From positions 7,703,563-7,767,562 of the forward strand of contig JAJEKV010000014.1 in assembly GCA_021234155.1 (NCBI GenBank): a stretch of DNA of 64,000 nucleotides. Reading direction: 5' to 3'. The stretch is from Isoetes taiwanensis. Its lineage: Eukaryota; Streptophyta; Lycopodiopsida; Isoetales; Isoetaceae. A program made the translations under genes and the position numbers. Positions 6,901 to 56,165 of the stretch are shown here, piece by piece; position 1 is the stretch's first letter; each line of letters opens with the position of its first letter. The notes below the pieces were generated by a model, which did no database searches, was not told the DNA's origin, and saw only the letters and a list, made by a program, of their open reading frames with translations.

Positions 6901-7224
6901 CTGGAGGGCACCATAACTTAGAAGTTCGTCCAAGTTATGTGGGATACGTGTGGCGTACACGTGTATAGGCTAGAATTGTACGAAATCAGGCATCTCGAGT
7001 TAGGCAACCCTACTTAAAATATGGCATTCCCATTAACGCATCCCAATTTTTGGGTTGCCCACACGGTAAATGGAGGGGTGAAATTGGAGATATGTCAAAT
7101 GGAAGGTGGAGATTTGTGGAGATAGCTGATTTGAGGGTTGCAATTAATATTTAAGAATAACCATGTTTGAAAGCACTAGCAGTTCGATGGAAATCATGCA
7201 GGGAAATATTAAAGGCAGATTTAG
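3902..7224. other. Noncoding region with small duplications and a possible LTR remnant
   Basis: No gene is supported. A ~44-bp block containing GTGCAACTAGGCTCTAGAA occurs at 5,951-5,994 and again at 6,804-6,847. The second copy lies about 35 bp after a TATA-like TATTTTATAAATAAGG near 6,766, a layout seen in LTR U3/R junctions, but no primer-binding site, polypurine tract or pol domain is visible. A ~40-bp direct duplication (TCTAGTCTCCATTT..) lies at 5,171-5,251. Around 6,385-6,470 the phrase CCTCGTG/CTTGTGCCA is repeated several times. Confidence 0.5.
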
Positions 7225-7317
7225 GTGGCATTTGCACCAATGAAAAGCTCTTACAGAGCTCTTTCCAGGGATATCTAATTTACCTATGTTTGGCCAAGAT
7301 TTAAAAGTGAAAATAGC
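7225..7317. repeat. Left partial unit of the ~182-bp satellite-like repeat
   Basis: The sequence CACCAATGAAAAGCTC..GAGCTCTTTCCAGGGATATCTAATTTACCTATGTTTGGCCAAG matches, in the same orientation, the units at 19.1-19.96 kb. The unit stops at 7,317 where the large transposon begins and resumes at 19,101, so the element split one unit. The last four bases, TAGC (7,314-7,317), are the left target-site duplication. Confidence 0.85.
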
Positions 7318-7342
7318 AAGTCGTATTTAATTAAATTGGGAC
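7318..7342 (+). repeat. Left terminal inverted repeat of the 11.8-kb transposon
   Basis: The terminus begins AAGTCGTATTTAATTAAA and continues TTGGGAC, then TCATTCC inward. It pairs with 19,076-19,100 with one mismatch. TAGC lies immediately outside. Confidence 0.9.
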
Positions 7343-7696
7343 TCATTCCATTCCCACTTTTTTTCGGAACCCTGTTAATTTACACAAAAAGGAGCACCCT
7401 GACCCGAAAACTATCCTTAATTCGAATTTTTGTCTGTAAGTATGCATCCAAGCTTTCTTCCAGTTTTCTCGGATAGCGAGTCGAGAACAAGAACAATGCA
7501 ATTCAAACAAAGGAAATTCATTAAAGATTGAAACCAAAGTTCTAGTCGAAAAAAAATTTTTATTAATAAATTGAATAGGTACAATGTATTTTACATCTGG
7601 ACGATAGACCATGGCGGTCTTCTTGGCCACTGATTACATCATCGTGGTAGGTGGTCCACCTTGGGGGATTAACTTGCGGCACTTCTTCATGCCGTC

Positions 7697-8075
7697 TCAG
7701 AAGCCTTGGGGGGCAACCTCAAGAGTGTGGAATGCCTCACGAGGAGGTGCCTCGAGCCACCGGCTGACCCGGTCCACCCGACTACTCCACTCTCCTCCAA
7801 ACTTTTCATCGAATATGCTCCTTCCCCAACCCTCGTGGATGTTATGCAATGCTTGCAAGATGCTTTGAGCTTTACGGGATGTCTCTAATTTCTTCTCCTC
7901 TTCTTTATCCCGAACGTGTGCATGGCGCTCGTGATGCATTCACGGCAACCTTATCCCAAAGTAGGGCAAGAGTGTAGCGTGAGCGGGAGGGATGTGCCGA
8001 GCAGGAATCTCTGCCGCCTTTGAGGGGATGCATTGCGTACACCGAGGCGGTCTCGTGATGCCCTGGGCAGTATGT
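7697..8075 (-). pseudogene. Unrecognised coding remnant at the transposon's left end
   Basis: On the minus strand one frame stays open across this stretch except for a single TGA at 7,940-7,942. It encodes a charged segment (HVRDKEEEKK) followed by a Trp-rich part with HEGWGRSIFDEKFGGEW and VSRWLEAP. I do not recognise the family. It lies downstream of the HAD-like exon on the same strand, separated by a gap holding three palindromes, so it may be a further 3' exon of that gene or a separate small gene. Whether the TGA is a true nonsense change or marks an exon boundary cannot be settled here. Confidence 0.4.
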
Positions 8076-8201
8076 AGGTTGCTTGGGATCACGACAATTA
8101 CGGTATCATTAGTCAAAACGAAGAAAAGAATGGTGAATTCAAAATACAATGGAGAACATTCATTCCATATAACCGCATTCATTCGCGTGGCAAGTAGTGT
8201 C

Positions 8202-8480
8202 TTTCTCGACTTGAGTCGAGAAAGGCCCGAAAAAGTCAAAGTACAACCATTCTCATTAGAATATGGCTGCATCCAATCACGGCGGAAGCATACAAATGGT
8301 TTCGATCAGCGAGAGTTCTTGATTGCCTTTCTCGACTCGCGAGTGAGAAAGGCCCAGAAACTCCAATGTACAACCATTATCATTATAGATTATGGTTGCA
8401 TCCGATCACACAAACAAACATACAAATGGTTTCATCAATGGGGACAAGCATGCCTTTCTCGACTTCATGAGTCGAGAAAG
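8202..8480. repeat. Palindrome cluster 1 (three copies)
   Basis: Imperfect copies of the core CTCGACTCGCGAGTCGAG flanked by TTT/AAA lie at 8,202-8,223, 8,327-8,353 and 8,454-8,480. Each is self-complementary, with centre variation (CTTGAG; CTCGCGAG with one arm shortened; CTTCATGAG). They fall in the noncoding gap between the HAD-like exon and the 7.7-8.1 kb coding remnant. Confidence 0.85.
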
Positions 8481-9462
8481 CCAGAAAAAAAGTCAATGTA
8501 CAAGTATATTCATTACAAAATATAGTACATTTCTTCACATTTCTTTACATGATTTACACAACTCGAAAATCTGAAAGCAGTGGTCACTCGTCTTGTTCAC
8601 CATAAAATTTCTTGTCCATAGCGTTCATGATCGCCCTGCTCTCTGGATCTGGTTCCTTGAGGCTCGGATAGTTCCTAATCACATCGCCACAAGAACGGCA
8701 AACAGGGATTCCGCCAAGCAGGAACGAGAGGAAAAAGACAACCACCTATCCGTTTCATACTCTTCTGGTCGATAACTCTTAGCAATGATTGTATTTTGCG
8801 AGTTATGATAGCACTTGTAGGCGGAGTCGTCTATGATCAGCGTGTTGTGTTTGCCAAAGTCCGGGAATTGTTCATAAACCATGTCCAGCCTTTTCACCAT
8901 AATAGACTTCCCCTTTGTGATGGCTGGATCGAGGTCTGACACATGCTCGACCCTTTCGTTTCCCCAAACAAACTTGAACTTCAAAACTGGAAGGCCGATA
9001 ACACCAAGGACATTGACAATATTTTTCTTTGCCATACAAGACTATATGGCCACTTCGAATCCCCGTTCCAGGCACCATTCAACAATTTCCTTTGCTCTAG
9101 GCCTCAGATACACGATTTTATGGTCATTTTTCGGCCGGGATCTGCGAGGTGTTAAGCTTCGGGGCGTCTTTATCGTGGTATCTGCAGCTAATACTCCATT
9201 GACGTCAAATATTACAAGCTTGGTGGGACCATCCGGATCCCGGTTGAGTTTGGCTCGACCGATTTCCCCTTGATCGGGATCCATATGCGGGATCATTATT
9301 TTTCAGCTTCTTTCTTGCGCGCCGGTGTCTTGCTCTTGATTGTCTTTGTTGAATGCGGTGTCCTCCTCGTGGATGTGAACCGCCACTAGATATTGTCAAA
9401 GATCCGAGTCGTTGACTTGGATGTCCCCTGAAATGATGAGAGACGTCGGATAGAAAAGCGGT

Positions 9463-9534
9463 TTTTTCGACTCGCGAAGTCGAGAATGAAAAAGTTAAAA
9501 GTCAGGAAAGGTTTTCGACTCGCGAGTCGAGAAA
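9463..9534. repeat. Palindrome cluster 2 (two copies)
   Basis: Copies at 9,463-9,487 (arms separated by an extra A) and 9,512-9,534 (perfect core CTCGCGAG) sit inside the putative intron between the linker exon and the HAD-like exon (9,428-9,557). Confidence 0.88.
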
Positions 9535-11249
9535 CACCGAAAACAAAGTGACTCACCTCAATCTCCAGATTCTCAAGAATTTGATCCGCAAACATTCAGC
9601 GTCCAAACCTTCGACATTCTCGTCTCCGTCATGTTTCTCTCCCTGGCTCTCAGGTTTGTCTTCGTCATCATCGTCCTTACTGCTTCCATTTGTCTTCCTC
9701 CCTTTGAAATGCTCATGAAGCAGATCCAAGTATGACCGAATGGTTTCAACTATGTCCTTATGTCCAACCACGGATATTGGTTTCATTCCATACAGCATAG
9801 CCCCCTGAGAGAACAGGCCATTCATGTACCACTCGCATACAATTTTATCTTCCTCGACCAAGCTGGTTATGAAGTACTTGATAACTCTTGGCCGGATAGG
9901 AATTCTATGTATTGGACCTGTCGCACCATCATTGCTGACTTTGTCCATCGATGGCACATCCTCCATAAATCTGCCGCCCTTCCAGGGTTCCATCTGCTCT
10001 TGAGAAATCATGAATTTGTCGAGATAATGATGTTCGCTAGACCACCACTTGTCCAGGTCTACAACCGATCTTGAAACTATATTGGCAAAGCTTGGTGCCT
10101 TCGGCAAGCCAAGTCTACACTCATGTTCAAGTTCGTATATGGAGTACAAGATCTTGTTGGTGAAGTTAATATCAGCTGCCCATTAGGAGACAGCAGTCGT
10201 CTGATTGCCCAACATGCAAAAGACAAGGAAACTGAAAGTATCCAGGTCGGTCATGTCCACACACGTCTTGTACCACTGCTCTATGTCAGCTTTGTCATAA
10301 AAAAGGGTGGGGTCTTCGTCTTCGATCATATTGATGGCAAATAGTGCCACGGGCCCAGGTGCCAGTTCCAGACCACCAAATCCCTTGTGTCCCAAGGTTA
10401 CCAGGAATGGAGGGGAGCTATCATCGGTCTTAAATGGGACCACCCCGAATCCAAGCTTCCTCTTCAGAATTGCCATAGCACGTTCAAGGAAGGGAAGGGT
10501 TTTGACGTTATGCTTGAGCTTGGTGTTGATGTAGGGTTGATATAGACGGTTCAACTCCTTCATGTCTTCCTCATCAAGGGCAGCCTTTTCCTTGTAATAA
10601 TCAAAGTCATGGAATTCATTGGAAGCAACATTGCAGAACTCCGTGATGCCTTCTTCCAATGCACGCCGTCTCTTTAGGACTGTGGCATAATCCTTTGCGT
10701 CCTTCATTTTTGAGCTTCTACTCTTCCTTAGCAGGATTGTTCCATCCAGGATTCTGCCCTGTAGATCAAGCATTTCCTTGTCGGTCAGGCCCTGTATCAT
10801 TTTCATAAATTGCCTGTCGAACAACTTTGGGTCCGGCCTGCATGGGAATTCTCCATTGCTGTCCTTCAGCTTGCCTCTTGTCCATTGAGCCCATATCTCA
10901 GTCCATTTCTCCCAGACCGCCTCAGTGCTAAGAATGAGGTCATATTGGTCTGAGAGAGATTCCCTGCCCTTTCTTGGTGTTCTCTTCTTCTTCTCCTCTT
11001 CATCCTCTCCCTCATCATCTTCCTGGCCTTCTAGCAGAACATATCTGCAGAGTTTCTCAAAGGTCTTCCACTTATCCGAGGGAGCCCTGTTTCCTTTAGG
11101 ATGCTGAGGACAACCCAATGCTTTCCACTGTTGCCGAGCGTGTATGATCTGGTCAGGATACGGGCTGCATTCAGTCAATGTCCCAATGTTAGAGCATGAA
11201 GGTATCTACTAACACCCGAAGTAAACACTAAATAGGAGGATGCAGGGGG

Positions 11250-11690
11250 TTTCTCGACTCGCGAGTCGAGAATACCCACAGGAAAGAAGAAAACATAGGA
11301 GAGTCCATGCCAGAGAGAAAGCATCGCGCATTCCCAAATCTTTGCTTTCACGCCTCTTCGAACGATGCAACTTAGGATATAAACTAAGCGACATTGCCCG
11401 AAGAGGCGGGGAAAGAAAGATTGAGAAGGCTCGATGCTTTTGCTCCTCAGCCATTAATCTCCAATGTTCTTTACCGCCCCGGGGTTTCTCGACTCGCGAG
11501 TCGAGAAAGTCCCTTGAATGTTTAATTTTCTTTTACTTCTTTGGGTTTTCTCGACTCGCGAGTCGAGAAAGCTCCGCATCCTTTGATTTTCTGTGTTCCC
11601 CTGGCTTTCTCGACTCGCGAGTCGAGAAACCCCAGTGATAATCGGGAAATGTTAGGATGCTAGGGCTTTCTCGACTCGCGAGTCGAGAAA
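11250..11690. repeat. Palindrome cluster 3 (five copies, four regularly spaced)
   Basis: Perfect or near-perfect 22-24-bp copies lie at 11,250-11,272, 11,485-11,508, 11,547-11,570, 11,606-11,629 and 11,667-11,690. The last four start 62, 59 and 61 bp apart with unrelated sequence between. All five lie in the putative intron between the linker exon and the ParB-like exon. This is the least degraded cluster. Confidence 0.93.
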
Positions 11691-13002
11691 CCACCGAATC
11701 AGAGACAGTTATTTACCTTATGTAGCTGGCACTCGCTGTTATTGTGTTCTGGCAGTGGCTAATGCTGGCCAGCTCCGTTGCTGGCGTCTCCGCTGAAAGA
11801 ACTCTGCAGTCTCGCTTGGCATATCTATCCTTGATCCTTTGCGGCACCTCCTTCTCAGTCTGCAATACTTGCGCTGCCCTCACTGAATGCTGGCCGTCTA
11901 CAACCCAGAACCGGACGTCTTTTCCCTTCAGGTCTTCCGCAGACTTCCAGCTGAACAACTCACCGGTCGATCTGCTGAAAGGTATGACATCCGCAGGCAT
12001 TGGATCTGCAACAGGATGTCGCACCATCAGGTTCAGAATCTCCAGCATGTGTGCTGGATTAAATTCCCTGTGGTTGAACAAGACGGCATCTCCCGTGCAA
12101 ACCTTCAGGCGTCTGATGTCCAGCAGCAGCTTGTGTATATTCCCAACGGATAATACTGAGCCAGCCGCTCCATTTTCTGTGCCCCTCTCTGTGAAATCCT
12201 GATCTGCTCATTTGGATCCATTAATGGGGAGTCGACCATATCTTCATCTGCTTCATCATCTGATTCCTCCCGTGTGGTGTCATCTCCTGGCTCTGGATTC
12301 CTATCTGGAGTTTTTTCTTTCTGAAGCACAACTTCCCTTGTAACTGACGAGTGTTGTAGAGTCTTCAGCACACTGGACGTGAAGCTCCCCGTGTTGAAGA
12401 GTTTTCTCTCACTCTGGAAATCTCCATTCCAAGCTCCCTGGATGTTAGGGTTCCGACTTCCTTCATCCCTTCCAGATTTTTCCACCCAAGGTTCTGACAA
12501 TTTAAAGGCGCCAGCCTTTTGTCGGTGCCCTTCGACTTGCTCATTGAAGAGTGAGAATAATTTGATACTGATAATTTCTTCGTGTGGTAGAACTTACCCT
12601 TCTGGCAGTCTTCCACATACATTGTTAGATGCTTCGAATATGGCGCAGAGACGGAGATCACAACATCGACCTTCTTGTACTTATCCCCGGAGCTCTTCTT
12701 ATCCCTTTGGTGGAGAAACAGATCTTTCTCCTTCCCACTTGTTGATACCTCGACATACCACCAAGAATCTGCTGGTGTGTCAAGAAGCTCTGTCTCCAAT
12801 CCCTCGATGACGAAGAACGGAGTTCGGGCAGTGATCACTAGCGACTCCGCGGTGAATGCTGCAAGACCAAGGGATGGATCAGTAAATGTATTCCGACCAA
12901 AGAAAAACCTCAGAGCTCACCTGGAGCGCCTCACTTTTTTCTCTTGCTGCCGCTAGAACCAGCATCCGCTCCGGCGCCTCGCTTCTTGGTCGGAGTCGTC
13001 AT

Positions 13003-13229
13003 GTCTATATGCCCCTGCATCTTCTTCCTGCTCGAACTCCCCTATAAATTAAGCCTCTTCCGCGCCTTGGAGGTTTTAGGACTGCACGTAAAAAAGGTCG
13101 GGCGTGTTCTTAAATTTGAATTTAAGGACATACATTCATTTAAGAAAAAAAGCGGGCTAAGGGTACAGCACGGTCGGCTTTAGCCCGCCCAAACACCATT
13201 TCGAAATTGAATCACATCTAGGGACTTAG
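13003..13229. promoter_or_regulatory. Divergent intergenic region between the two transposon gene blocks
   Basis: This gap separates the minus-strand ParB/HAD gene start (13,002) from the plus-strand DUF8039-like exon. It contains an inverted repeat with arms GCGGGCTAA (13,152-13,160) and TTAGCCCGC (13,180-13,188), an AT-rich near-palindrome TTAAATTTGAATTTAA at about 13,110-13,125, and CTATAAATT near 13,041. A bidirectional promoter is inferred from position only. Confidence 0.35.
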
Positions 13230-13505
13230 TGAGCGCAGTGTAGCTTATCTTCACTGCGCGCGCGCGTCTTATTGCAAGTAGTTGATTTGATCGATGAGCA
13301 CGGAGCTAAGGTAGCAAGCGGAGAGGAGCTGCCACACACGGGAACTCTACACTGCAGCGCCATGGAAGGGGGATACACGAGAATCGCATTGATACAAGTA
13401 TTAGATGCGAATGCACTCTTGATGAGACCGACAGAAGAAGCAAAGACTCTCGGAGAGGCTGCGGGATCTGTGATACAATGGCCCAAGGAATTACTGCGTG
13501 AAGAG
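13230..13505 (+). CDS. DUF8039-like exon of a transposon protein (partial)
   Basis: An open frame reads VVDLIDEHGAKVASGEEL, then TRIALIQVLDANALLMRP, then TLGEAAGSVIQWP, and ends at a good donor, GAAGAG|GTGAGT (13,505). The order (G-x-VA-x-G, then V-x-x-VL-x-x-A-x-L-x-x-P, then a-LG-A-G-x-x-x-x-WP) is that of the DUF8039-type domain found in plant transposon-linked proteins. The N-terminus of the DUF7869-type gene downstream shows a similar arrangement, so the two may be duplicated domains. The first exon boundary is uncertain and no following exon could be placed. The domain call is from memory of the family pattern. Confidence 0.5.
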
Positions 13506-13857
13506 GTGAGTTTCAGAGATGCATGTGTTATTTTGTATGTAGAACATGCCGTCTGTGTTTAGATCATGGAACTGCTCATAAGCTCGACGGATTTATTGTT
13601 TCCTTGTCGAGCATTTCTCAGCTTCGAGAGATGAATTACTCTCTGGGTAAACGTGAACAGTTCCGTGTTCTGGTCATGGAATGTTCGGCAGCAACTAGTG
13701 AACAGTTTTAGGTGTATTTTTTCTTGGAATGTTTTCCCTTCAGTTTAGAAGCATAGGGCTCCATCCAGTGCGAGTATCTGTTAGGCGTACTAGTTGGGTA
13801 TAGATCAGGCTAGGTCTAAGGCCCTGGAGATGCGGTTCAAATGCTTAGACCCAAAGG

Positions 13858-13938
13858 CCTGCAGACAGTCAGGGCCACTTCCCTTTGTAATATTCGAGCA
13901 AGATAGTTCGAAGGAGAGTGGCTCAGACTGTCTGCAGG
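13858..13938. repeat. Large hairpin module, copy 1
   Basis: Arms CCTGCAGACAGTC (13,858-13,870) and GACTGTCTGCAGG (13,926-13,938) are perfectly complementary. Inner complementary blocks (GCCACT/AGTGGC) extend the stem. The loop contains AATATTCGA and GTTCGAAGGAGA, shared with copies 2 and 3, although the arms differ. Confidence 0.88.
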
Positions 13939-14011
13939 CACCTGGAGAATGCACGGGAGCGGGCATTGCTATGTGTGAGGCCAGCGGGTCCTCTCGACAG
14001 GATAGAGGCAT

Positions 14012-14659
14012 ACTCGACTCGCAGGCCGAGAATGCAGACAGCAAGCTCTGTGGTTTCCCTGTGGTTAGTTGTAGAGGCCTCCACCCAGTCCGAGCCCCTC
14101 CCCTTCGCAATATTCGACGAAGATGGTTTGAAGGAGAGTGGCTCTGACTGGGTCGAGGCCACTGCGACCATACACAGGAGAATTGACTGGCTAAGGGATT
14201 CTCGACTTGCGAGTCGAGAATGCAAGTGTTATTTTCTGTCAGATTTCGACTCGCAAGTCGAGAATGCCTTAGCCATCGAGAACTCGGATAGTACACATGG
14301 AGTCTTTGGTTGTTAAGGCATTCTCGACTCATGATGAGAGAATGCGCACGTAAGCCTGCGGGTTTCCTTGTGGTTAGTTGTAGAGGCCTCCACCCAGTCC
14401 GAGCCCATCCCCTTCGCAATATTCGACGAAGATAGTTCGAAGGAGACGGTCTCTGACTGGGTAGAGGCCACTGCGACCATACACAGGAGAATTGGCTGCC
14501 TAAGGGATTCTCGACTTACAAGTCGAGAATGCAAGTATTGGCTTCCTGTCTGCATTCTTGACTCGCAAGTCGAGAATGCCTTACCCATCGAGAACTCTAG
14601 ATAGTACACATGGAGTGCTGGCTGGTTAAGGCATTCTCGACTCGCGAGTCGAGAATGCA
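14012..14659. repeat. 309-bp tandem duplication with hairpin modules 2-3 and palindrome cluster 4
   Basis: Unit 1 (about 14,052-14,360) and unit 2 (about 14,361-14,659) share order and sequence. Each holds an 85-bp hairpin (14,076-14,160 and 14,385-14,469; arms ACCCAGTC/GACTGGGT and GAGCC/GGCTC or variant) followed by three short palindromes: 14,199-14,221, 14,244-14,264 and 14,318-14,344 in unit 1; 14,508-14,531, 14,551-14,579 and 14,631-14,659 in unit 2. A further degraded palindrome lies at 14,012-14,032. Long open frames here are by-products of the repeats. Confidence 0.85.
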
Positions 14660-15032
14660 GACAGAGAGCCAAATAAATACCCCTGTGGTACTGCTTTCCT
14701 TTTGATTTGCTTTCTGTTTGTGCTTTCTTGTGTTTAGTTATTGTTTACTTGAATACCTTGTACAAGCATCAGTGTTCTTAGATGCTAATAGTAGTGGCAA
14801 GCACCCGACTTAGGAATCCTGAGAGATAGGAAGAAAAGTATTGCATAACAGTAAGAGAACATCACCATAAACCATTCAGAAAAGAAAGTGCAAAATTGTC
14901 TATGATTCATAAAAGAACATAACTGTGCATGAAATTGTTTTACACAAACTTAAAATAGGAATTGCCTTACAGATTGAAAATTTCACTCACAGCATATCCT
15001 CCTTTGCAGGAGAGGTGCAGAAGGGAACCCGG

Positions 15033-15141
15033 CTTTCTCGACTGGCGAGTCGGGAATCCCTCAGTTTGCAAACAATCCAGAAAGTACAAGCCTTATTCTC
15101 GACTCGCGAGTCAAGAATGTCTCGACTCGCGAGGCGAGAGA
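15033..15141. repeat. Palindrome cluster 5 (three copies)
   Basis: Copies at 15,033-15,056 (CTCGACTGGCGAGTCGGG), 15,096-15,118 and 15,120-15,141, the last two almost abutting. They lie between short minus-strand candidate exons, again in noncoding sequence. Confidence 0.85.
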
Positions 15142-15171
15142 CAAATGAGAAAATATTAAGAAAAAAAATAC

Positions 15172-15486
15172 CTGGGAGATAAGTTGGATGAGGAGGAAGC
15201 TGCAGAGTTTGATGCCATTTTGCTACAGGCGTTTGCAAAGCGAAAGTAAGGATTTGTCGGGCTGGAAAATGTATCAGGGTATATGAAGAGGCTCTAAAAA
15301 AATAATAGGAGCAGCACAGTAGTAAAGGAATTGCAAAAAACTATAAACAAGCAGTATAAGAATATAAAAACTTACAGAAAAGGGTTCTCACTTTCTTCTT
15401 AGGATGTACTTTCTGCTGGCTAACTCAAATTGAGCCAAAACGTCGTCGCTGGATGCGTCGCGATCCATCGACCACTCTGCAGTCAT
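15172..15486 (-). other. Two possible short minus-strand exons
   Basis: On the minus strand an ATG at 15,486 opens a frame reading MTAEWSMDRDASSDDVLAQF and reaching ASRKYILRR before a donor AAA|GTGAGA (exon end 15,392). A second ATG at 15,218 opens MASNSAASSSSNLSP and ends at CAG|GTATTT (15,172). Both look like beginnings of spliced coding regions, but I could not place following exons or recognise a family. Confidence 0.25.
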
Positions 15487-15708
15487 AAGATTGCTTCGGA
15501 AATGCGGGAGTCGATCGATCGCCAAGGCGGAACATGCGGATGCCGGAGTCGGAACAGGGGAAGAGAAAGAGGAATAGAAGGAATAGGGGTCGCGGGAGAA
15601 GAGGTAGAGGGTGCAGTTATTTCTGGGTGCACCCTCGAACCTCGACAAAGTGGCATTTATGACACTCCTAGAGTCACGTGTGTGGCATGCCATCCGTGAC
15701 CTGGATTG

Positions 15709-15752
15709 CTGACGTGGCCATGTCAGATGTCGCTGACGAAGGGCCACGTCAG
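15709..15752. promoter_or_regulatory. Inverted pair of TGACGTGG (bZIP Hex-type) sites
   Basis: CTGACGTGGCC (15,709-15,719) and its exact complement GGCCACGTCAG (15,742-15,752) flank a 22-bp spacer. TGACGTGG is a known plant bZIP target. The pair lies ~300 bp upstream of the first coding exon of the DUF7869-type gene, so it may drive that transcript; it could equally be just another hairpin. Confidence 0.4.
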
Positions 15753-16011
15753 CACGTCATGAATTCGGGGAACCCTATGTTTTAATGGTTATAATGTTCA
15801 AATGCTTTTTAATTGTTAATGTTAAATGTTAATGTTAAATTTTTTAATGTTCTTAATGGTTATAAGGTTATAATGTTTTAATGCTTCTTAATGGTTAATG
15901 TTAGCCAGGATTTCAATGGTTTTTAATGTTTATATGGTTTCTAATGGTTATATGGCTATAGTGCTCTTTCATATATGGTTGTATATGGTTTTAATGTGTG
16001 CTCTTTCATTC

Positions 16012-18874
16012 AGGGAGCATGTGAGATGAGCAAAATGGAGCCAAGGAAGCCCAGCACGGGACATTGCCCTAGGCTCCAATGGAGGAAGATGGGTTGCTTG
16101 TTGTTGCACCCTTGCAACGAGACGGTATTTGCAGAGGGCATCATAACTGCAGTTGATCCTTTTGATAGTGTGAATGATGAAAGGCTGGGAGATGATCAAC
16201 TTGGAGTTGGCATTGTGAAGCTTCTTATCCAAGTTGATACAATCATGTCCCAGGGAAGCTCTAGTGATTGCATTGTGTGCTCTGGGTTGTTGGAGTCCCA
16301 AACTCAGTTGAGATGGCCAATTAGATATATTACACACAAGAATGGTGATAGTCTGGAATGCCCTACTGAACTACATACCCCAAGGCCCACCCAAGGCCAT
16401 GTGGAAGATTTGGTGGTCGATGAGCATCCTTTGATCACAAGGAAGAGACGCTATGTTTTTCATAAAAGGCAGCCAAGGGTGCCCAAGAGGCCTAGAAGTG
16501 ACAAATATTTAGAAAGGATGGAAAGTATGGCCCCAACCAAAGAAAACCTAGAGGCAATTAGGGGACAAGAGTGTTGCAACCTAGATTGCACAAAGGCAAG
16601 ATCTGGTGTGGATGACCTCATGCGAGATAAGGTCCCAATACATTGGACAGACTTCATAAAGATAGGATTAATTTCATCTACTCCTTGTGTAGGAATTCCG
16701 GCTATGATGAAAACACGGAAGGCTACTATATCAATTGAGGGGCATGAAGGTATGTATGAGAGCATTGAGATGGATTCTTGGGGTGAGCAAGTCTTCATTC
16801 TACGTGATATCTTTGGGAGCAGGTTAGAAAAAGGCACACAGTTTGTTCCAACATGGCAATGCACTCACTTTGAAACCTACAGCAAATACTCTCAAGGCCA
16901 TTGCAGTCTTCGAGAGTTTTGTGAGATACATGTCCCAATCTATGCCCCACAAGTCGAAGGTGAACGAGCCACGGTGTGCGAGTGGTGCAAAGGGTGTTGC
17001 CACAACACTATATCCAAAAGGAGTGCCTTAAAGAGGTCAACTCCATCCTAGAAACTACTGGAGGTAGGCCTCTTTCTCAATCACATTTCAGCAAGTTATG
17101 GAGCACTCACTTCTCAGACGTGAGTGTCCTGCAACACATGCCATTCTCAAAGTGCAACACTTGCATTCAACTCAAGGATACACTTGCATCAACTGCAATA
17201 GAGAAAGAAAGAATGGCAATTAGGGAGCAATTTGCAGATCATCAAAGGGACCAAATATCATGTAGACAGTTGTATTGGCAGTGGAGAACATTTTCTGAGA
17301 TGCAACCGGACAATTTTTTGTGTATAATTCATGATAAGATGGACCAACACAAGACTTTCTTGCCAAAGCTAGATCCTTTACCCAAGCGTTGTCAAAACGC
17401 TTTTCAGATGAAAGTAAGTCTGGCGGGTGTCTTAACACATGGTCATGGAACCGGAACCTATGGTCATTTTGTGCTTGATCTATGGAGGGATGATCCAAAC
17501 TTCCATGTGAGCTCTATTTTCAAGTGCTTGAGAACACTAGAAAAAGGATCGATAGAAGGGAGGAGGTATTCCCCTTCAGCACCCATTTTTGAGGCTTTGA
17601 TGGATGATCAACCGCTTTGTTACCAAAGGCAGATAAAAAACCTCACATCCAAGGTGTCTAGTGAATCAAGGAGGACTTGGGATGATTTCCCCTTACTTGA
17701 GAAACAACTGCCTGAGGAGCTATGTGTTCAATTGGACAACTGTTGGAAAGAAAACAAGAATAGATGGATGTTTGGGGCGATGTCATACTTGACAGCAGTG
17801 GGAGTATTCAAAGTTGTGAAAGTGGGATTCATGATGGTTGGGCATACGCATGATGATATAGATGCATTCTTTGGAACTTTCTCCACCAAGCTCAAGAGAG
17901 AAAACGTGACTAGTCTCCCTGAACTAATGGATGTGTTTGAGAGCAGCATTGACCCCAACCCAATGGCTTTCTTGATGGATGAGGTTGCAGATTGGAAATC
18001 ATTTGTCGAGGGATACTTGCTAGATGGTAAGGATCAGTTGACAGGACACAAAAGCCACTTCAGTTCAAGTTTTGGGTTAGGGATGGAATACCAATCATGC
18101 AATATAAGTGGAGACCAGGTGACAAGTTGTGGAGAAGGAATCGAGTTGTGGCAACGGGGTGCTGCTGGTGAAGTTCTCATTCCTAAAGGGCAGCCAAAAC
18201 CACTACCTCCCTTCAAGACTGTCAAAGACTCTAGCCAACTAGTGAAGGGCATCAAGGATTATATAACGCACTGGGATGATGTTCGAAGTGGAAAGCACAC
18301 CTCCACTCTTAAGAAAAATCAAATGGACTCCCTAATCAAGTACTGGGAGAAAGTTGTCACATGCTTAGAAACTGAACAACCATGTGGAAGGGAGCTGAGA
18401 GACGGGTTCTTGCCAGAGTCAAGATGGGAGGGTTCTCAACGAGCAAGCACGTCTAAGAATGTTCCTAACAAGGGTTCCAAGTGGTTTGTGGGAAGTAAGC
18501 CGAAGTGGTTTGATCTTCTTGAGTGGGATCTTTTTGAGGACATCAAGGAAGGATACTTTGTGCTAGTAAGGCCTGATGATGAGGATTGTCCAATATGGTT
18601 AGGGGTGGCACTCTCTGATGTAACCACCACTATGCCTGATGGAGAGGAGTTGCGTCCTGGATTCCAAATTCAATATTGGGAGCCCATTGGGAGGCACAAG
18701 AAGGGCAACTTGAAGGAGCAATACATGACTGCTGGGAGAAGAAGTAGAGGGCAAATCATGCTGATCCTCAAAGGAGGGAATTGGTGGAGTGTGTGGTATG
18801 GTCATATCCAAGTTCTCACATTGCAAAGGACAACACACACAAGATCCAAAAAAGGGAGATGGACAAAGCCATGA
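16012..18874 (+). pseudogene. DUF7869-type (DDE-like) transposase-like gene with two 1-nt frameshifts
   Basis: An acceptor TTCATTCAG precedes 16,012 and the first Met in context is at 16,026. The N-terminal part has DUF8039-like spacing (FAEGIITAVDP..LGDDQLGVGIVKLL..LRWPIRYI), then a Cys-rich ECCNLDC. Coding then moves frame near 16,830 at an A-run, continues as LKAIAVFESFVRYMSQSMPHK, and moves frame again near 17,028 to LKEVNSILET..LSQSHFSKLW. The core has KCNTCIQLKD (Cys pair), IIHDKMDQHK, VQLDNCWKENKNRW and FMMVGHTHDDIDAFF. The acidic residues in these blocks are where a DDE/RNase-H-fold transposase would place its catalytic residues, and the D-N-x-x-x-x-N-K-N and GHT blocks are the signature of DUF7869 proteins. 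A C-terminal tail (DLLEWDLFEDIKEGYFVLVR..WYGHIQVL) resembles a small barrel domain. With both shifts it would give ~950 residues. The preceding 15,760-16,000 stretch is a TTAATGGTTA-rich intron or 5' region. It is the best candidate for the element's own transposase. Confidence 0.7.
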
Positions 18875-19075
18875 GCAACCTCCATGCTATATCATTGTAT
18901 GAGGGTAGATAATATTGAGAAGCTTGAAAACTTTCTCAACTAGTGGTTTGATGAGGAAAACAAGTAACCCAATTCTTTGTGTGTGATGTGTAATTCTATT
19001 CAAGCAATCAATTCAGAAAATTTTTTTATGGGGTATGAGTCCCATTTTCAGTCTGAGTCCCAAAATGCAAGATTT

Positions 19076-19100
19076 GTCCCATTTTAATTAAATACGACTT
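19076..19100 (-). repeat. Right terminal inverted repeat of the 11.8-kb transposon
   Basis: The reverse complement of 7,318-7,342 with one mismatch, followed outside by TAGC (19,101-19,104). Just inside are two more AGTCCCA copies (about 19,036-19,062), giving a subterminal repeat cluster. Confidence 0.9.
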
Positions 19101-19960
19101 TAGCAGATTTACAGTCGGATCTAGGGTTCTGTTGCTTTTCGATAACTTGGTTTTTCTTCTCATAACTGCTCAATTGGAGCTCTGTTTTAGGTGAAATTTA
19201 TGTCAATGGAAAGCTCTCATTGAGCTCTTTCCAGAGACATCTAATTTGCCTATGATTGGCAGAGATTCTAGGGTGAAAACCACAAATACACATCCAGATT
19301 TAGGGTTATGTTGCTTTCAATGACTTAGCATTACAATTTTTTCTCATAATTGTGCAATCAGAGCTCTGTTTTAGGTGAAATTTGTGCCAATGGAAAGCTT
19401 CCACATAGACCTCTTCAAAACTATCTAATTAGCCTATGTTTGGCCAAGATTTGAAGCAGAAATCAATAAACTTACAGCTAGATCTGGAATTTTGGTGCTT
19501 TCTAATCGTAAGAGGTACAACTATTCTCATAATTATCTAACTACAACTCTATTCAGATGAGATGCATCAATGTAAAGCTTTTTCAGAGGTCTTACCAGAG
19601 ATACCTAGTTGGGCTATGTTTGATCAAGATTTTAAGGAGAAAATAACAAGTTTTAGGCCGAATTTAGGATTTTTGTTGCTTTCAATCACTCAATAGTATA
19701 TTTCTTCTTATAACTATTCAATGAGAGCTATATTTCAGATGAGTTTGGCGCAAATGGAGAGCTATTTAAGAGATACCTTCAGGAATATCTAATTTCTATA
19801 TGTTTGTCCAGGATCTGAAGGAGAAACTAATGAATTTCTGGCTAGACTGCCACACATGGAAAGTATATCATGAATGGACCTATTACAGAAATGTAGCAAT
19901 ACCATCAAATGCTAGGGAGGATGTAAACACATATAACAATGGAAAATCTAGGAGCAAATC
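19101..19960. repeat. Satellite-like array, ~182-bp period, four units
   Basis: The anchor CAATGGAAAGCT or a variant occurs at about 19,204, 19,388, 19,568 and 19,751 (spacing 184, 180, 183). Each unit carries the same order: GAGCTCTGTTTTAGGTGAAAT, the anchor, a TCTAATT..CCTATGTTTGG block, an AAGATTT block and a TTGCTTTC block. Units have diverged by point changes and small indels. Noncoding. Confidence 0.88.
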
Positions 19961-21543: not shown

Positions 21544-22090
21544 GAGCTAGAAGCAAGCAGTTCTGGCGCGGCAAAGTCTGATGATTCGGTTACCATGCTT
21601 GCGGCTGAGATGTCTCTCTTGAGGGAGGACATGAAGACTTTGAAGAGTGCCAACGCCAATCTGGAGGAGGAGATGAAGACTTTGAAGAGTGACAACGACA
21701 ATCTGGAGGAGGAGATGAAGACTTTGAAGAGTGACAACGACACTTTGAAGAGAGCCAACGTCAATTTGGAGGCGGAGGTGAAGACTCTGAAGAGTGACAA
21801 CGTCATTATCAAGAGACGAATGACATGTTTAAAATTTACCGTAAGATCAGCAGAGGCCCTTCACAAACGAAGGTTTTTAGAGGCCTTCCAACGCAAGGTG
21901 CGGGATTTGTGTGGCGGTGAGTTGAACCGAGATGGTGATGGCCCCTCTATCTCTTGGTGGCAGACGTTCATTGGGAGAATGCGAGGTTGGTTACAGGCCT
22001 TACTGGTGTACAGGTGTCGTCGGATGTGCTTGATGTGACCGGTCACGAGGAGGGGTCATTGCAGCAAGAATACTCTCAGCTTGTCCATCG
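21544..22090 (+). pseudogene. Coiled-coil exon, frameshifted copy
   Basis: An exon-like frame starts after an acceptor CTTAG (ELEASSSG..) and encodes a Leu/Lys/Glu-rich coiled coil built on a 14-residue repeat (MKTLKSDNDNLEEE and variants). It then reads VRSAEALHKRR and GPSISWWQTFI. At 21,970, seven bases present in the sister copy (CAAACCG after TTCATTG) are missing, which shifts the frame before the C-terminal part. It has one more 14-residue unit than the copy at 23,966. I do not recognise the family. Confidence 0.6.
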
Positions 22091-23965: not shown

Positions 23966-24510
23966 GAGCTAGAAGCAAGCAGTTCTAGCGCGGTAAAGTC
24001 TGATGATTTGGTTACCATGCTTGCGACTGAGATGTCTCTCTTGAGGGAGGACATGAAGACTTTGAAGGGTGCCAACGCCAATCTGGAGGAGGAGGTGAAG
24101 ACTTTAAAGACTGACAACGACACTTTGAAGAGAGCCAGCGTCAATTTGGAGGCGGAGGTGAAGACTCTGAAGAGTGACAACGTCATTATCAAGAGACGAA
24201 TGACATGTTTAGAATTTACCGTAAGATCAGCAGAGGCCCTTCACAAACGAAGGCTTTTGGAGGCGTTCCGACATAAGGTGCGGGATTTCTGTGGCGGTAA
24301 GTTGAACCGAGCTGGTGATGGCCCCTCTATCTCTTGGTGGCAGACGTTCATTGCAAACCGGGAGAATGCGAGGTTGGTTACAGGCCTTACTGGTGTACAG
24401 GTATCGTCGGATGTGCTTGGTGTGACCGGTCACGAGGAGGGGTCATTGCAGCAAAAATACTCTCAGCTTGTCCATCGGCATGACATCTTAGATGAGCGAG
24501 TGGTCTACTC
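23966..24510 (+). CDS. Coiled-coil protein exon, open copy; family unrecognised
   Basis: After an acceptor CTTAG the frame opens ELEASSSSAVKSDDLVTM and continues without a stop. First comes a coiled coil with the 14-residue repeat (LEEEVKTLKTDNDTLKR), then a basic stretch (KRRMTCLEF, LHKRRLLEAF), then a conserved-looking tail (SISWWQTFIANRENARLV, GVQVSSDVLGVTGHEEG, YSQLVHRHDILDERVVYST). Similarity with the 21.5-kb copy stops at about 24,510, where a different interspersed repeat begins, so the natural 3' end is lost or lies elsewhere. It may be part of a host gene fragment or a mobile-element protein; I cannot tell which. Confidence 0.45.
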
Positions 24511-24520
24511 GACATTGGAT

Positions 24521-25790
24521 ATATACACAAGAAATTTACTACGTCATTCATCGCATTGTTCCAGTTTTAGCATGTTTCTAACGGTGCAAATTTCTGTCGT
24601 GCCCTACATTCTAAAAGAGTCTCTTGAGAATACTCTAAATTCATAGATTCTCTAAGATTCTACTAAGGTTCTCTTAGAGGTTTCGTGAAGATTCCTCTAA
24701 ATTTTATAAGATTCCATTAGATTCTCTTAGATTTTATAAGGTTCCTTGCATTCTATGAAGATTTCCCTAGATTCTCCAAGATTTTATGAAGATCCCCTTA
24801 GAACCCGCTAGATTTTATAAGATTGACCTAGGTTCTCTTACATTATATGAGATTCAAAGAGATTCTATAAAGATTCTCCTAGATACTCTAATATTTCATC
24901 AAGATTTTCTTAGATTCCCTTAGATTTTATAAAGATTTCCTTAGATCTTATGAAGATTCCCTTAGATTCCCCTAGATTTTAAGAAATTCCCTTAGACTTG
25001 TATATATTTTCCTAGATTCTCTTACATCTTATGAGATTTTATTAGATTCCCTTAGATTCTCCTAGATTCCTTTACATTCTAGGACTTTCTGGAACATTCT
25101 GAAACTTTCAAAACATCGTAGAAATTTTTGGAAGTATTTCCCTAGATTCCCTTACATTCGTGTAGATTCCTCTACATATAAGAACAATTTAGAAATTTTT
25201 GGAAGGATTCTCTTAGATTCCCCCTAGATTTTCTTATATTCTAAAACTTTCTAGAATATTCTAGAACTTTCTAGAAGATTCTAGAACTTTCTAGAGCCTT
25301 CCAGAACATTCTAGAACTTACTTGAACTATTTAGAATGTTATACTCTATTTTATCTTAATTAGAATATTCCCCTTAAGTATATAAAACATAATTATTTAA
25401 TGAATTATTGTTTAGTCTAGTGGTTAGAATAGAGGGTTGGGGGGTTGATGTTCAAGGTTCGAATCCCTCATAGAACATAAAAGTTTTAAAAGCCTCTCCT
25501 TAAGGGACGAGCATTCAACATGAGCCGTAGGATCTTGGACCCAATCAAGGGTCGAGATCTCAACACGTGATAATAATTAAAGCAACATGAGCCATAGATC
25601 TATTACATATAATTCCCAAAGCCATGTGCACCGTAGGATATGTGCCAAGCCAAGTGAGCCGTAGGATCCTGGATCGACGATCAGGATCAAGAACAATCTG
25701 GACCGCAGGATCTATTACATATAATTCCCACAGCCATGTGCACCGTACGATATGTCCCAAAGCAACGTGAGCAGAGGGTGAAGTGGCTTA
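24521..25790. mobile_element. Mosaic repeat R, copy 1 (TAGATT array, tRNA-like core, CCGTAGGATC body)
   Basis: The repeat starts ATACACAAGAAATTTAC. A long degenerate array of CTTAGATTCC / TTTTATGAGATT and then CTAGAACATTCTAGAACTTT blocks follows, then a tRNA-like segment (25,411-25,470), then a body with repeated GAGCCGTAGGATC and GACGATCAGGATCAAGAA phrases. Two more copies lie at 32.6-34.4 kb and 34.4-36.4 kb. No open frame of note. Confidence 0.75.
25411..25470 (+). repeat. tRNA-like Pol III promoter in repeat R, copy 1
   Basis: TAGTCTAGTGGTTAGAAT (25,413-25,430) fits a tRNA A box and GGTTCGAATCC (25,456-25,466) is a perfect B box; the spacing is tRNA-like. There is no acceptor stem, so this is a SINE-type promoter relic, not a tRNA gene. 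Confidence 0.75.
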
Positions 25791-26225
25791 AATCATAGTT
25801 CGAAGTCATGTTTTTACAATCAATTCAAATTGATACTTCAAAACAATAGAATACTTGATAGCATAACTTTATGGGAATTGGCCTGAAGAATTTCAGGGAT
25901 GCTCGGAATGGAAGAAGTATTGCAGAAGCATAAGGACAAGTCTAATAGAGTAGAGAATGGAAATATATACTTTGTTAGCATAGAAATGAGAGAACTCCTT
26001 GTGACCTCTAATCTGGTTTTTGTCATAGAGAGCTTCAAATATCTGAGGAGCAGGTTTTGTAGAGGCATAAAACATTGATGCATAGTCTAACTCTAAACCT
26101 CGCAAGAAGAAGTGAAACCAAATGGTCGCAGACTCGAAATGCAAGATCTATGCAATGCACATACCAAGAATCTTTGTAGCTAAATGAAGATCTCGACCCC
26201 CCTCCTTCCCTCCCTCCCTCCCTCT

Positions 26226-26783
26226 ACTGAAAAACCGCTATATTGCCCTGTTTGTGGATCTGACGAAAGCTTTTGACATGGTTAGAAGAGATGGCATATG
26301 GGCCAGACTTGAAAAACTGGGAGTTCTAAAAGACATGAGGAATGTGGTAGATTCACTCTATGAAAAGGTATGGATTCAATTGTCCTTCCCTTTGGTAAAT
26401 GTTTGCAATGAAATGATAGATAGCAATATGGGGGTAAAGCAGGGTTGGCCTCTATCACCTACTCTATTTGGTCTTTTTATTGATGAGTTAGAAACTTGGA
26501 TCTCTCAGAATGGTCAAGGAGGCACCTTGGTAGGAGGTTACACTCTAGCCTTGTTACTCACGCATATGGCATTGTTTTGCTCTCCAGAACTGCAAGTGGC
26601 ATGCAACAACAGCTCAATAACCTAGCATCCTTTTGAGATGCAAGGCAGATGGAAGTCAATCTTGGTAAGACCAAAGTTATAGTTTTTGGCACGAGGTCAA
26701 GAAATTTCAATCTCTGGTACAAAGGCACTAAGGTTGAGGGGTTCAAATCCTTGGAGCTCCTTTCAATTTATTTGCAGTACGAA
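26226..26783 (+). mobile_element. LINE reverse-transcriptase fragment
   Basis: A frame reads YIALFVDLTKAFDMVRRDGIW, then MGVKQGWPLSPTLFGLFIDELE, the standard palm/fingers motifs of non-LTR reverse transcriptases. After a frame change it continues IVLLSRTASGMQQQLNNL and, after another, QMEVNLGKTKVIVFGTRSRN. The YADD box has become HAYG and at least two frameshifts are present. The 5' and 3' parts are missing. A CCCTCCCTCCCT tract (26,200-26,223) adjoins the left edge. Confidence 0.85.
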
Positions 26784-44424: not shown

Positions 44425-46118
44425 TCCAGAAACCCCACATAAGTGATGTTTTACCCTCTAGGGGCAACCTAGAAAAACTTTATATACTAGTATGGTTTTT
44501 GATGACTACAATAAGAGATATGTAAATGTTCTCTTATGATATCTAGAGAACTGGCTAAGAAAGAGAGTAGAGAATTAATCCACCAATCAAACATTGAAAT
44601 ACATTGGTTTGCAAAGGTGGACTAGCTTGTTTTTATGGAACTACGATGCAGTTTATATTCAATATGCTTTCATGCTCAGATGGGTGTTTTGCTAAACTGA
44701 ATCTATTAGTAGTTGACTAGATTAGTTTATTCATTGTATTTTGTATTGCTAGATATTTATGTTTCCCTTCGTTTAAAAACTAAAAGGAGTAAGGATTGCC
44801 TTAGGTACTTGAAGAAGGGGTTAACCACCCCTGCGAGGCTGTTACAACCCGTAAATAGGCGAGCCCAGCCTTTAACTGGCAGGACCATCAACTCTCACTC
44901 CTAAAGCTGGATTATCCCATCCACACCTCCACCCACAACAAGATTATCACATCAGAGCAGGGTTATTGGCACCCATAGCGGATTATCACATCCACAACTG
45001 AAACCAAAGCAAATCCAGAGATTTTGAATTGGGCTGGAGCGGATTTCGGCCTGTCACAGGGCTGGGATCAACGGTGGAGATGAACTGGATCACAAATCAT
45101 GCCAGTTAAGGTTCACAGAGCTTGTATTTTACGTTGTAGTTGGACGTGTGTTGATTGTTTGGGTCTTCCTCGTGTTGGTGTAAGTCTTCATTTGTCTTAA
45201 TAAGAGAAGCACTATGCTAGTACTACGTGATCAACTTTTTTCCCGCATTAGGAGCTAGGATAAGGATGATCATCAGGTAAATGAAACCAATTAAAAGGGA
45301 CTGTTCCTTTGTTCAGCCTCATGACATGACAGGATAATTTTTCAATAAGATAAAAGATTCTGATGATTCGGCAGGCTAAAAGTATCTCAACGGTGGTGGC
45401 GAGATATTATGTGATGTAGAAGAGTTGTACAAACAACAAGGGGTGGCTTGAATGGAACGTATACATCAGAATAGATGGTGAAAAAAAAAAGGTGTAAAAA
45501 AACGTGTTGGGAAACATAAAAGAAGGGGTAAATGTTGCCGCAACCATAGGAAAAAAAATAAAGTGCCACATGTCGTTATTTTGGGGTACAAGAGTGGAAA
45601 AAAATAACCCTAATTTAAGGTAAACGCAGCCGCCACTATTGCCGGCCCCTGCACGTGGGCTCTGGCGTACACGCACGCCAGAACATCGGAGCCCTTGGCG
45701 GAGCGTGTGAGCCCCCGACACTTTCAATCGCCGTCAGTCATCTCCGTTTGGGCCTTTTCCGTCCTCCCTACTAGTGTATTGCCCCAACCATAACATCCGT
45801 TGCTAATCTTCTCTGGCCCATCTCCAAAATTTGGCTTGATCTTGCCACTTCGTCCAAATATGGGTATCTTTTGTGGCCAATCGGAGATCATATCTCCCAG
45901 AGCCACATTTCAGGAACTTTTGTAGCAGTTTTATGCTCAAGGAACATATACAAAAGGCATCTCTCTATCGGGCTCCATGGAGTGCTCCAGATCTCCAGAT
46001 TCAGAGTAAAACCAGGTTTTTGTTCAAGCATTGATTTTTGATGGGAAGTCTGAGTGTTTGTTGTAGATTAGAGATGTCATGTGAACCATGTTAGGGGTTT
46101 GGCTTTGTTAGTGGCAGA
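44425..46118. other. Upstream region of the KDM5/JMJ17-type gene
   Basis: No gene found. GATTATCCCATC (44,910), GATTATCACATC (44,942) and GATTATCACATC (44,981) are three near-identical 12-mers within 83 bp, about 1.1 kb before the KDM5-type start. The final few hundred bases should hold the promoter and 5' UTR, but no TATA box stands out. Confidence 0.45.

Positions 46119-56165
<10,047 letters not shown>

Follow-up and report, generated by a model that had tools for sequence, protein, structure and literature searches.

A transposon family of Isoetes taiwanensis with a probable DDE transposase gene, a ParB-like gene and a repeated 22-bp palindrome

What kind of mobile element interrupts a satellite array of Isoetes taiwanensis, and what do its two genes and its many copies of a single palindrome do for it? 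The question was raised by a 64,000-nucleotide stretch of contig JAJEKV010000014.1 (assembly GCA_021234155.1, positions 7,703,563 to 7,767,562), hereafter called the window, in which an earlier note made from the sequence alone had described one large DNA transposon. The answer that we favor, with somewhat better than even confidence, is a cut-and-paste transposon bounded by terminal inverted repeats (TIRs), in which gene A encodes a DDE transposase and gene B an accessory protein that recognizes the palindromes.

The transposon occupies positions 7318-19100 of the window (11,783 bp), as delimited by its termini, its target duplication, an empty site and its genomic copies. The left TIR (7318-7342, plus strand) and the right TIR (19076-19100, minus strand) agree at 24 of 25 bases, the first 18 being identical (AAGTCGTATTTAATTAAA.TGGGAC), and the target-site duplication TAGC stands on both sides (7314-7317 and 19101-19104). 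Pairs of internal palindromes aside, the window has no other exact inverted pair of 18 bases with a spacing above 3 kb. When the interval and one TAGC were removed, the joined flank aligned across the junction to the downstream satellite units, with 70.7% identity over 505 columns. The termini, flanking TAGC and empty site of the earlier note were thereby confirmed, as was the restoration of the satellite, while its unit measured about 184 bp instead of the 182 bp given before. The satellite that hosts the insertion lies at 19153-19502, and the left flank (7220-7313) is a further piece of a unit. Short GGGACTCA repeats are found just inside the termini, once on the left (7336-7345) and twice on the right (19040-19075), and are possible candidates for subterminal transposase sites.

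The host assembly (1.66 Gb in 1,110 contigs) was searched with the left 383 bp and the right 380 bp of the element, and the best 40 of around 2,000 candidates were scored for each end. Besides the window's own ends, 39 matches were obtained on the left at 92-96% and 39 on the right at 94-97%. Genome-wide, exact matches to the 25-base terminus number 2,269 (1,128 + 1,141), enough for about 1,100 copies, and the reversed control has none. Of the 39 other left-end copies, 15 were fetched as long stretches (the ten ranked highest and five more that had both ends listed), and three further copies were fetched at their ends only. Both ends were read in 18 copies, comprising the window, 13 full copies and four with the right end (or both ends) fetched separately; copies 2-11 had been chosen in rank order and the remaining eight because each was listed at both ends, and copy c10, whose right end was not found, was left out.

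A perfect 4-bp duplication flanks 16 of these 18 copies (AAAG, GAAT, AATA twice, TTCT, GTAT, CTCT, CTTC, GCAT, ATTT, TTTG, TAGC, ACAA, TCCA, AAAA and CTTG). The duplications have an A+T content of 72% and no fixed motif; the two copies without a matching duplication carry ACAC/GGAT and AAAG/GAAG. Among 34 convergent pairs of neighboring ends, taken from 100 places listed, ten are spaced by 3.5-4.6 kb, 12 by 11.0-12.7 kb, and the other 12 by 5.1 to 324 kb. The spacings near 4 and 12 kb thus indicate a family with a short class alongside the long class. The termini could in principle have come from two unrelated short elements, with the interval between them not forming a unit, which the earlier note had named as an outcome that would overturn its description. 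This explanation, to which we assign a negligible probability, found no support and is refuted by the duplications that match across the whole unit in 16 of 18 copies, with 22 of the 34 end pairs about 4 or 12 kb apart. The copies also share both genes, which are present in divergent orientation in all 14 complete copies (the window and 13 others), so that the search proposed in the earlier note bears out its single large transposon.

Two of the short elements were read at one end each, and in both cases the sequence is that of the long element's left end. The derivatives of about 4 kb also retain the palindromes. Beside copy c16, which is 15.5 kb long, a stretch near 16385700-16386200 (G000 C930) shares about 90-94% identity with two such derivatives at their ends; it starts 26 bp past the end of the copy.

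Gene A lies on the plus strand and is probably a DDE transposase, as judged from a predicted structure. Its presumed first exon is an open frame at 13233-13562, of which 13341-13550 matches the N-terminus of the relative P0007 by tblastn; the exon borders are not transcript-based. A middle part homologous to the relatives (16071-16962, in two frames in the window copy) is followed by the catalytic part (16964-18724), which matches DUF7869 in Pfam with E 1.4e-41, and by the C-terminal end (18727-18885), which lies in another frame owing to a frameshift in the window copy. Structure modeling, fold matches and conservation all point to an RNase H-like catalytic core of the DDE type with conserved acidic residues, namely, D124, D258 and D298/D300, encoded at 17333, 17735 and 17855/17861. 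The proposal of the earlier note that the DUF7869-type gene is the transposase is thus supported at the level of a predicted fold, and a Pfam scan returned DUF7869 alone, with no match to Transposase_21. A TNP1-type match of the relative P0003 was weak and below the cut-off (E 0.023), the NCBIfam matches were all weak (IS1182 ranked first, with 19.3 bits where 270 is the cut-off), and no member of the family was confirmed among 44 stretches of viral contigs. Many genomic copies match gene A residues 2-590 only, and genomic rows with frame lengths near 990 aa contain stops and were not counted as open frames.

The DUF8039-like exons of the earlier note are supported only indirectly. PF26133, which we take to be DUF8039, is listed for eight of the 38 gene A relatives, but it was not reported in our own scan of two of these eight and of the window exon. 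The Pfam scan of the window first exon gave no match, and among the seven relatives shown, P0007 alone matches the exon at 13.3 kb, at its N-terminus.

Gene B lies on the minus strand and combines the ParB-like and HAD-like parts that had been recognized before, in that order. Its N-terminal exons (approximately 12105-12858) were drawn from open frames, and the frame changes near 12.14 kb. The ParB-like domain with the motif DGQHS (11713-12140) has the predicted fold of a ParB N-terminal domain and matches ParB, Noc and KorB structures. A large exon of about 550 aa (9553-11165), supported by genomic rows and the relative P0039, is interrupted by a TAA at 10183-10185. The NIF-type HAD phosphatase domain (8679-9302) contains a TAG at 9042-9044 and matches Pfam NIF with E 2.7e-8 on the read-through piece (34.1 bits against a cut-off of 21.8) and with E 6.9e-5 on the C-terminal piece alone. 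HAD motif I usually reads D-x-D, and here it is D-x-N in all 15 copies shown. With its broken frames, the window copy of the element is dead. An altered genetic code was considered for the stop at 10183 and rejected, because genomic rows at this place show frames of some 550 aa that are uninterrupted over the matched part, three of them at 550-551 aa (among the best 119 of 4,881 candidates, window included). The ParB-like family was found in none of 26 viral contigs. The metagenome proteins P0039-P0080 are distantly related to gene B and have no Pfam domains listed; most are about 450 aa long, and many have a ParB-like DGQHS region near the C-terminus.

Gene B might be passenger cargo captured by chance and foreign to the transposition machinery. 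Its NIF/HAD part resembles a plant host family, as would be expected of cargo, and unrelated genes are often carried by giant transposons according to the sections consulted of PMC12477816. We consider this account improbable, since pieces of gene B are kept in 14 of 14 complete copies, an excess at third positions (i.e., constraint on them) extends across the whole gene, and genomic candidates are many, with the best 119 of 4,881 scored. The same opposite-strand ParB-like arrangement is moreover described for Ectocarpus Sola1-1_Ec32 in those sections.

The palindrome array inside the element had been missed by the earlier note. With up to three mismatches allowed, the window contains the palindrome TCTCGACTCGCGAGTCGAGA 15 times, always within the element and against an expectation of 0, and exact matches to its 22-base form number 3,678 genome-wide against 0 for the control. 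In the window copy, a degenerate palindrome with three mismatches lies at 7466-7487, three palindromes in tandem units of about 127 bp lie downstream of gene B (8204-8490), two lie in what is presumably a small intron of gene B (9466-9535), five exact ones in another presumed gene B intron (11251-11690), and a cluster, partly in 309-bp tandem units, in a presumed 2.5-kb gene A intron (14006-15141). Among 50 palindrome places listed, 29 lie within 16 kb inward of an exact terminus and none outward (chance, about 2%), although the places cluster and are not independent. Five of these 29 were fetched, and each falls in an interval that one or two exact termini mark out. Palindromes were thus found inside element copies wherever sampled, and one of the two element proteins may recognize them.

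Several observations weigh against the function that we propose. Neither gene is open over the queried part in any of the 13 other complete copies, and the third-position excess of gene A is weak. No exact terminus lies within 16 kb of 21 of the 50 listed palindrome places; the sole place fetched from these 21, L065, shares 83% identity with an element copy across the 180 bases that it spans. Furthermore, a control stretch of the window of the same length holds nine palindromes of other sequences (arm of at least 8) against 11 in the element. Consequently, the mark of the element is one repeated palindrome and not palindromes in general.

Since palindromes are not rare in this genome, the control also favors a reading in which they are functionless, neutral hairpin repeats that were spread by tandem duplication and persist because the copies are young. 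Tandem duplication is indeed clear in parts (spacings of 127, 309 and about 61 bp), the centers are rewritten between copies as expected of slippage at hairpins, and the identity of the window to other copies is 93.3% in the palindrome core, barely above the 92.4% of the remaining noncoding DNA. The adjacent 30 bp reach only 88.0%, however, and CpG positions are kept at 94.0% in palindromes versus 87.2% elsewhere. Over 238 sites with up to five mismatches in 16 copies, core positions are 79-99% conserved and flanks 29-71%, the sites having been picked by core similarity. None of the 17 window sites lies in presumed coding DNA (p ~1e-6 if the sites were independent, which tandem duplication violates). 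In view of this conservation and placement, we consider neutrality doubtful, at about the level of the passenger account.

The palindrome center is replaced between copies (e.g., by CGCG, TG or TTCATGAA), often with the dyad symmetry kept, as at 8204-8260 and 11660-11690 of the window. This suggests selection for symmetry or else hairpin-templated rewriting. Palindromes as mobile mini-insertions were rejected, as three aligned regions show the center rewritten or lost in place and no clean insertion.

If the palindromes are bound, the DUF7869 transposase is the other candidate, with the palindromes as its internal or subterminal sites and gene B in a separate role, such as regulation via its phosphatase domain. 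The TNPA sites of En/Spm are likewise internal or subterminal. DUF7869 loci elsewhere speak for this possibility. At L062 (CADCWO010000071.1, 34-4091), an intact DUF7869 frame of 963 aa, 30% identical, is flanked by seven copies of a different palindrome, TTTAGCTCGACTCGAGCTAAA, with three before the gene, four after it, none inside it and none in 20 shuffles; no convincing duplication was found on inspection for terminal repeats around this gene. At L064 (CAILMA010000604.1, 4972-5149), two identical 89-bp tandem units follow a DUF7869 frame at less than 500 bp, each holding a pair of palindromes, namely CTTGTGTTCGTTTCCGAACACAAG and another centered on TTCGCGAA. Palindromes thus lie beside DUF7869 at three of the four places examined, counting the window family, and their retention in the 4-kb derivatives also suits transposase sites. 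The exception, which tells against this role, is L063, a weaker DUF7869 match for which a repeat and palindrome search gave no such array. In the 12-kb element, moreover, the first good palindromes lie 0.9 kb from the left end and none occurs in the final 3.9 kb leading up to the right end, which is unusual for end-recognition sites, and the contigs of L062 (4.3 kb) and L064 (5.2 kb) are so short that a gene B could lie beyond their ends. All three loci are filed under bacteria, L062 under a cyanobacterial metagenome-assembled genome; from their content, we infer that they are contaminating eukaryotic DNA. Because palindromic sites are where ParB dimers act, we rank gene B first as the palindrome binder. 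The transposase stays a close second because of the palindromes at L062 and L064, and the reading built on it is a real possibility that we nevertheless hold to be less probable than not.

Under the favored reading, with gene A as transposase and gene B as palindrome binder, the gene A protein would, judging from its predicted fold, cut at the 25-bp ends and join them to target cuts staggered by 4 bp, a stagger that would produce the 4-bp duplication. With less certainty, the gene B protein, uniting a ParB fold with a NIF/HAD phosphatase, would act as a dimer that binds the 22-bp palindromes and loads onto the element. Once loaded, it might help the element to escape silencing, by analogy with VANC in Arabidopsis VANDAL elements, or alternatively help to assemble the transposition complex. 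The derivatives of about 4 kb, having ends and palindromes, would be mobilized in trans.

A further reading, which we think unlikely, has a ParB/parS-like system taken over by a eukaryotic transposon, whose ParB-fold protein would load at the palindromes in introns and spacers, spread or bridge along the element, and mark it as self. If so, silencing might be resisted or the long element compacted for transposition, and the fused HAD phosphatase might act on chromatin or transcription proteins at the element. ParB-like accessory proteins have been reported for algal giant transposons, with no target named for them in the sections consulted. The 22-bp palindrome is now a candidate target for such a protein, with thousands of copies and a position inside element copies at six fetched places. 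Thus, the question can be tested directly with two proteins and one oligonucleotide. DUF7869, in turn, is now linked to a complete transposon, the ends and duplications of which are defined, and the annotation "probable DDE transposase" can therefore be given to the domain.

Elsewhere in the window, a frame of 508 aa (46095-47621) has what we take to be JmjN, ARID and PHD-like parts, suggesting a plant-type histone demethylase gene. A fragment at 26188-26625 resembles a long interspersed nuclear element (LINE) reverse transcriptase, presumably, by its motif LFVDLTKAFDMV. Separated by about 2.4 kb, two coiled-coil frames (21544-22038 and 23966-24646) resemble each other and contain internal repeats of 63 and 42 bp, forming a local duplication.

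Among known systems, inverted termini with a 4-bp duplication in 16 of 18 copies and a predicted RNase H-fold domain with conserved acidic residues point to a TIR (DDE) DNA transposon. The predicted catalytic core resembles those of Mos1/mariner transposases and retroviral integrases, whereas the gene A family profile matched no PDB sequence at E up to 1. Mariner elements duplicate TA. Kolobok and piggyBac were rejected, as none of the 16 varied duplications is TTAA, the target of Kolobok and, in the source excerpt, of piggyBac. EnSpm/CACTA elements have CACTA-type ends and a 3-bp duplication, and this class was rejected on the ends AAGTCG, the 4-bp duplication and the lack of a Transposase_21 match. 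Bacterial ParB, Noc and KorB share the predicted N-terminal ParB fold and have palindromic sites on the same element (parS-type). The ParB superfamily is characterized by a GERR-type CTP motif and a helix-turn-helix, whereas gene B has DGQHS where the GERR-type motif is expected and resides in a eukaryotic transposon, and neither its ParB profile nor its HAD piece found a PDB sequence with an E-value of 1 or less.

In the literature searched, no mention of DUF7869, DUF8039, PF25273 or PF26133 was found. Zisupton/KDZ was rejected on the 4-bp duplication, that of Zisupton being 8 bp in the excerpt consulted (PMC12730594). VANDAL elements with VANC are similar in motif layout, having family-specific short motifs in tandem arrays in noncoding DNA, including introns of element genes; as far as the consulted sections go, the VANC21 motif has nine bases and forms non-palindromic arrays in one orientation, in contrast to the 22-bp palindrome here (PMC5735166; PMC10398659). 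The duplication length in 16 of 18 copies agrees with Sola, the 4-bp duplication being given for Sola2 (PMC3627910) and Sola1 being listed in a table for Physcomitrella (PMC9033089), in the parts consulted. The earlier note had read this length as a hint of Sola- or Academ-like biology; for Academ, the Pfam find bearing on the question is DUF7869 alone. The closest likeness, by layout, is to Ectocarpus Sola1-1_Ec32, a large DNA transposon in which a ParB-like accessory gene and the transposase lie on opposite strands (PMC12477816, sections consulted). The earlier note knew of no published element that combines these genes, which must be corrected for the ParB-like gene opposite a transposase and stands for its partner, since the Ectocarpus gene is joined to a methyltransferase and the one here to a NIF/HAD phosphatase, with no methyltransferase domain found by Pfam in the scanned pieces. 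The Ectocarpus element is 21.5 kb long rather than 11.8 kb, and the string "palindrom" does not occur in the text of its source as consulted. As far as that text goes, the Isoetes element is an arrangement of the same kind as Sola1-1_Ec32, with a phosphatase in place of the methyltransferase and with a palindrome array in addition.

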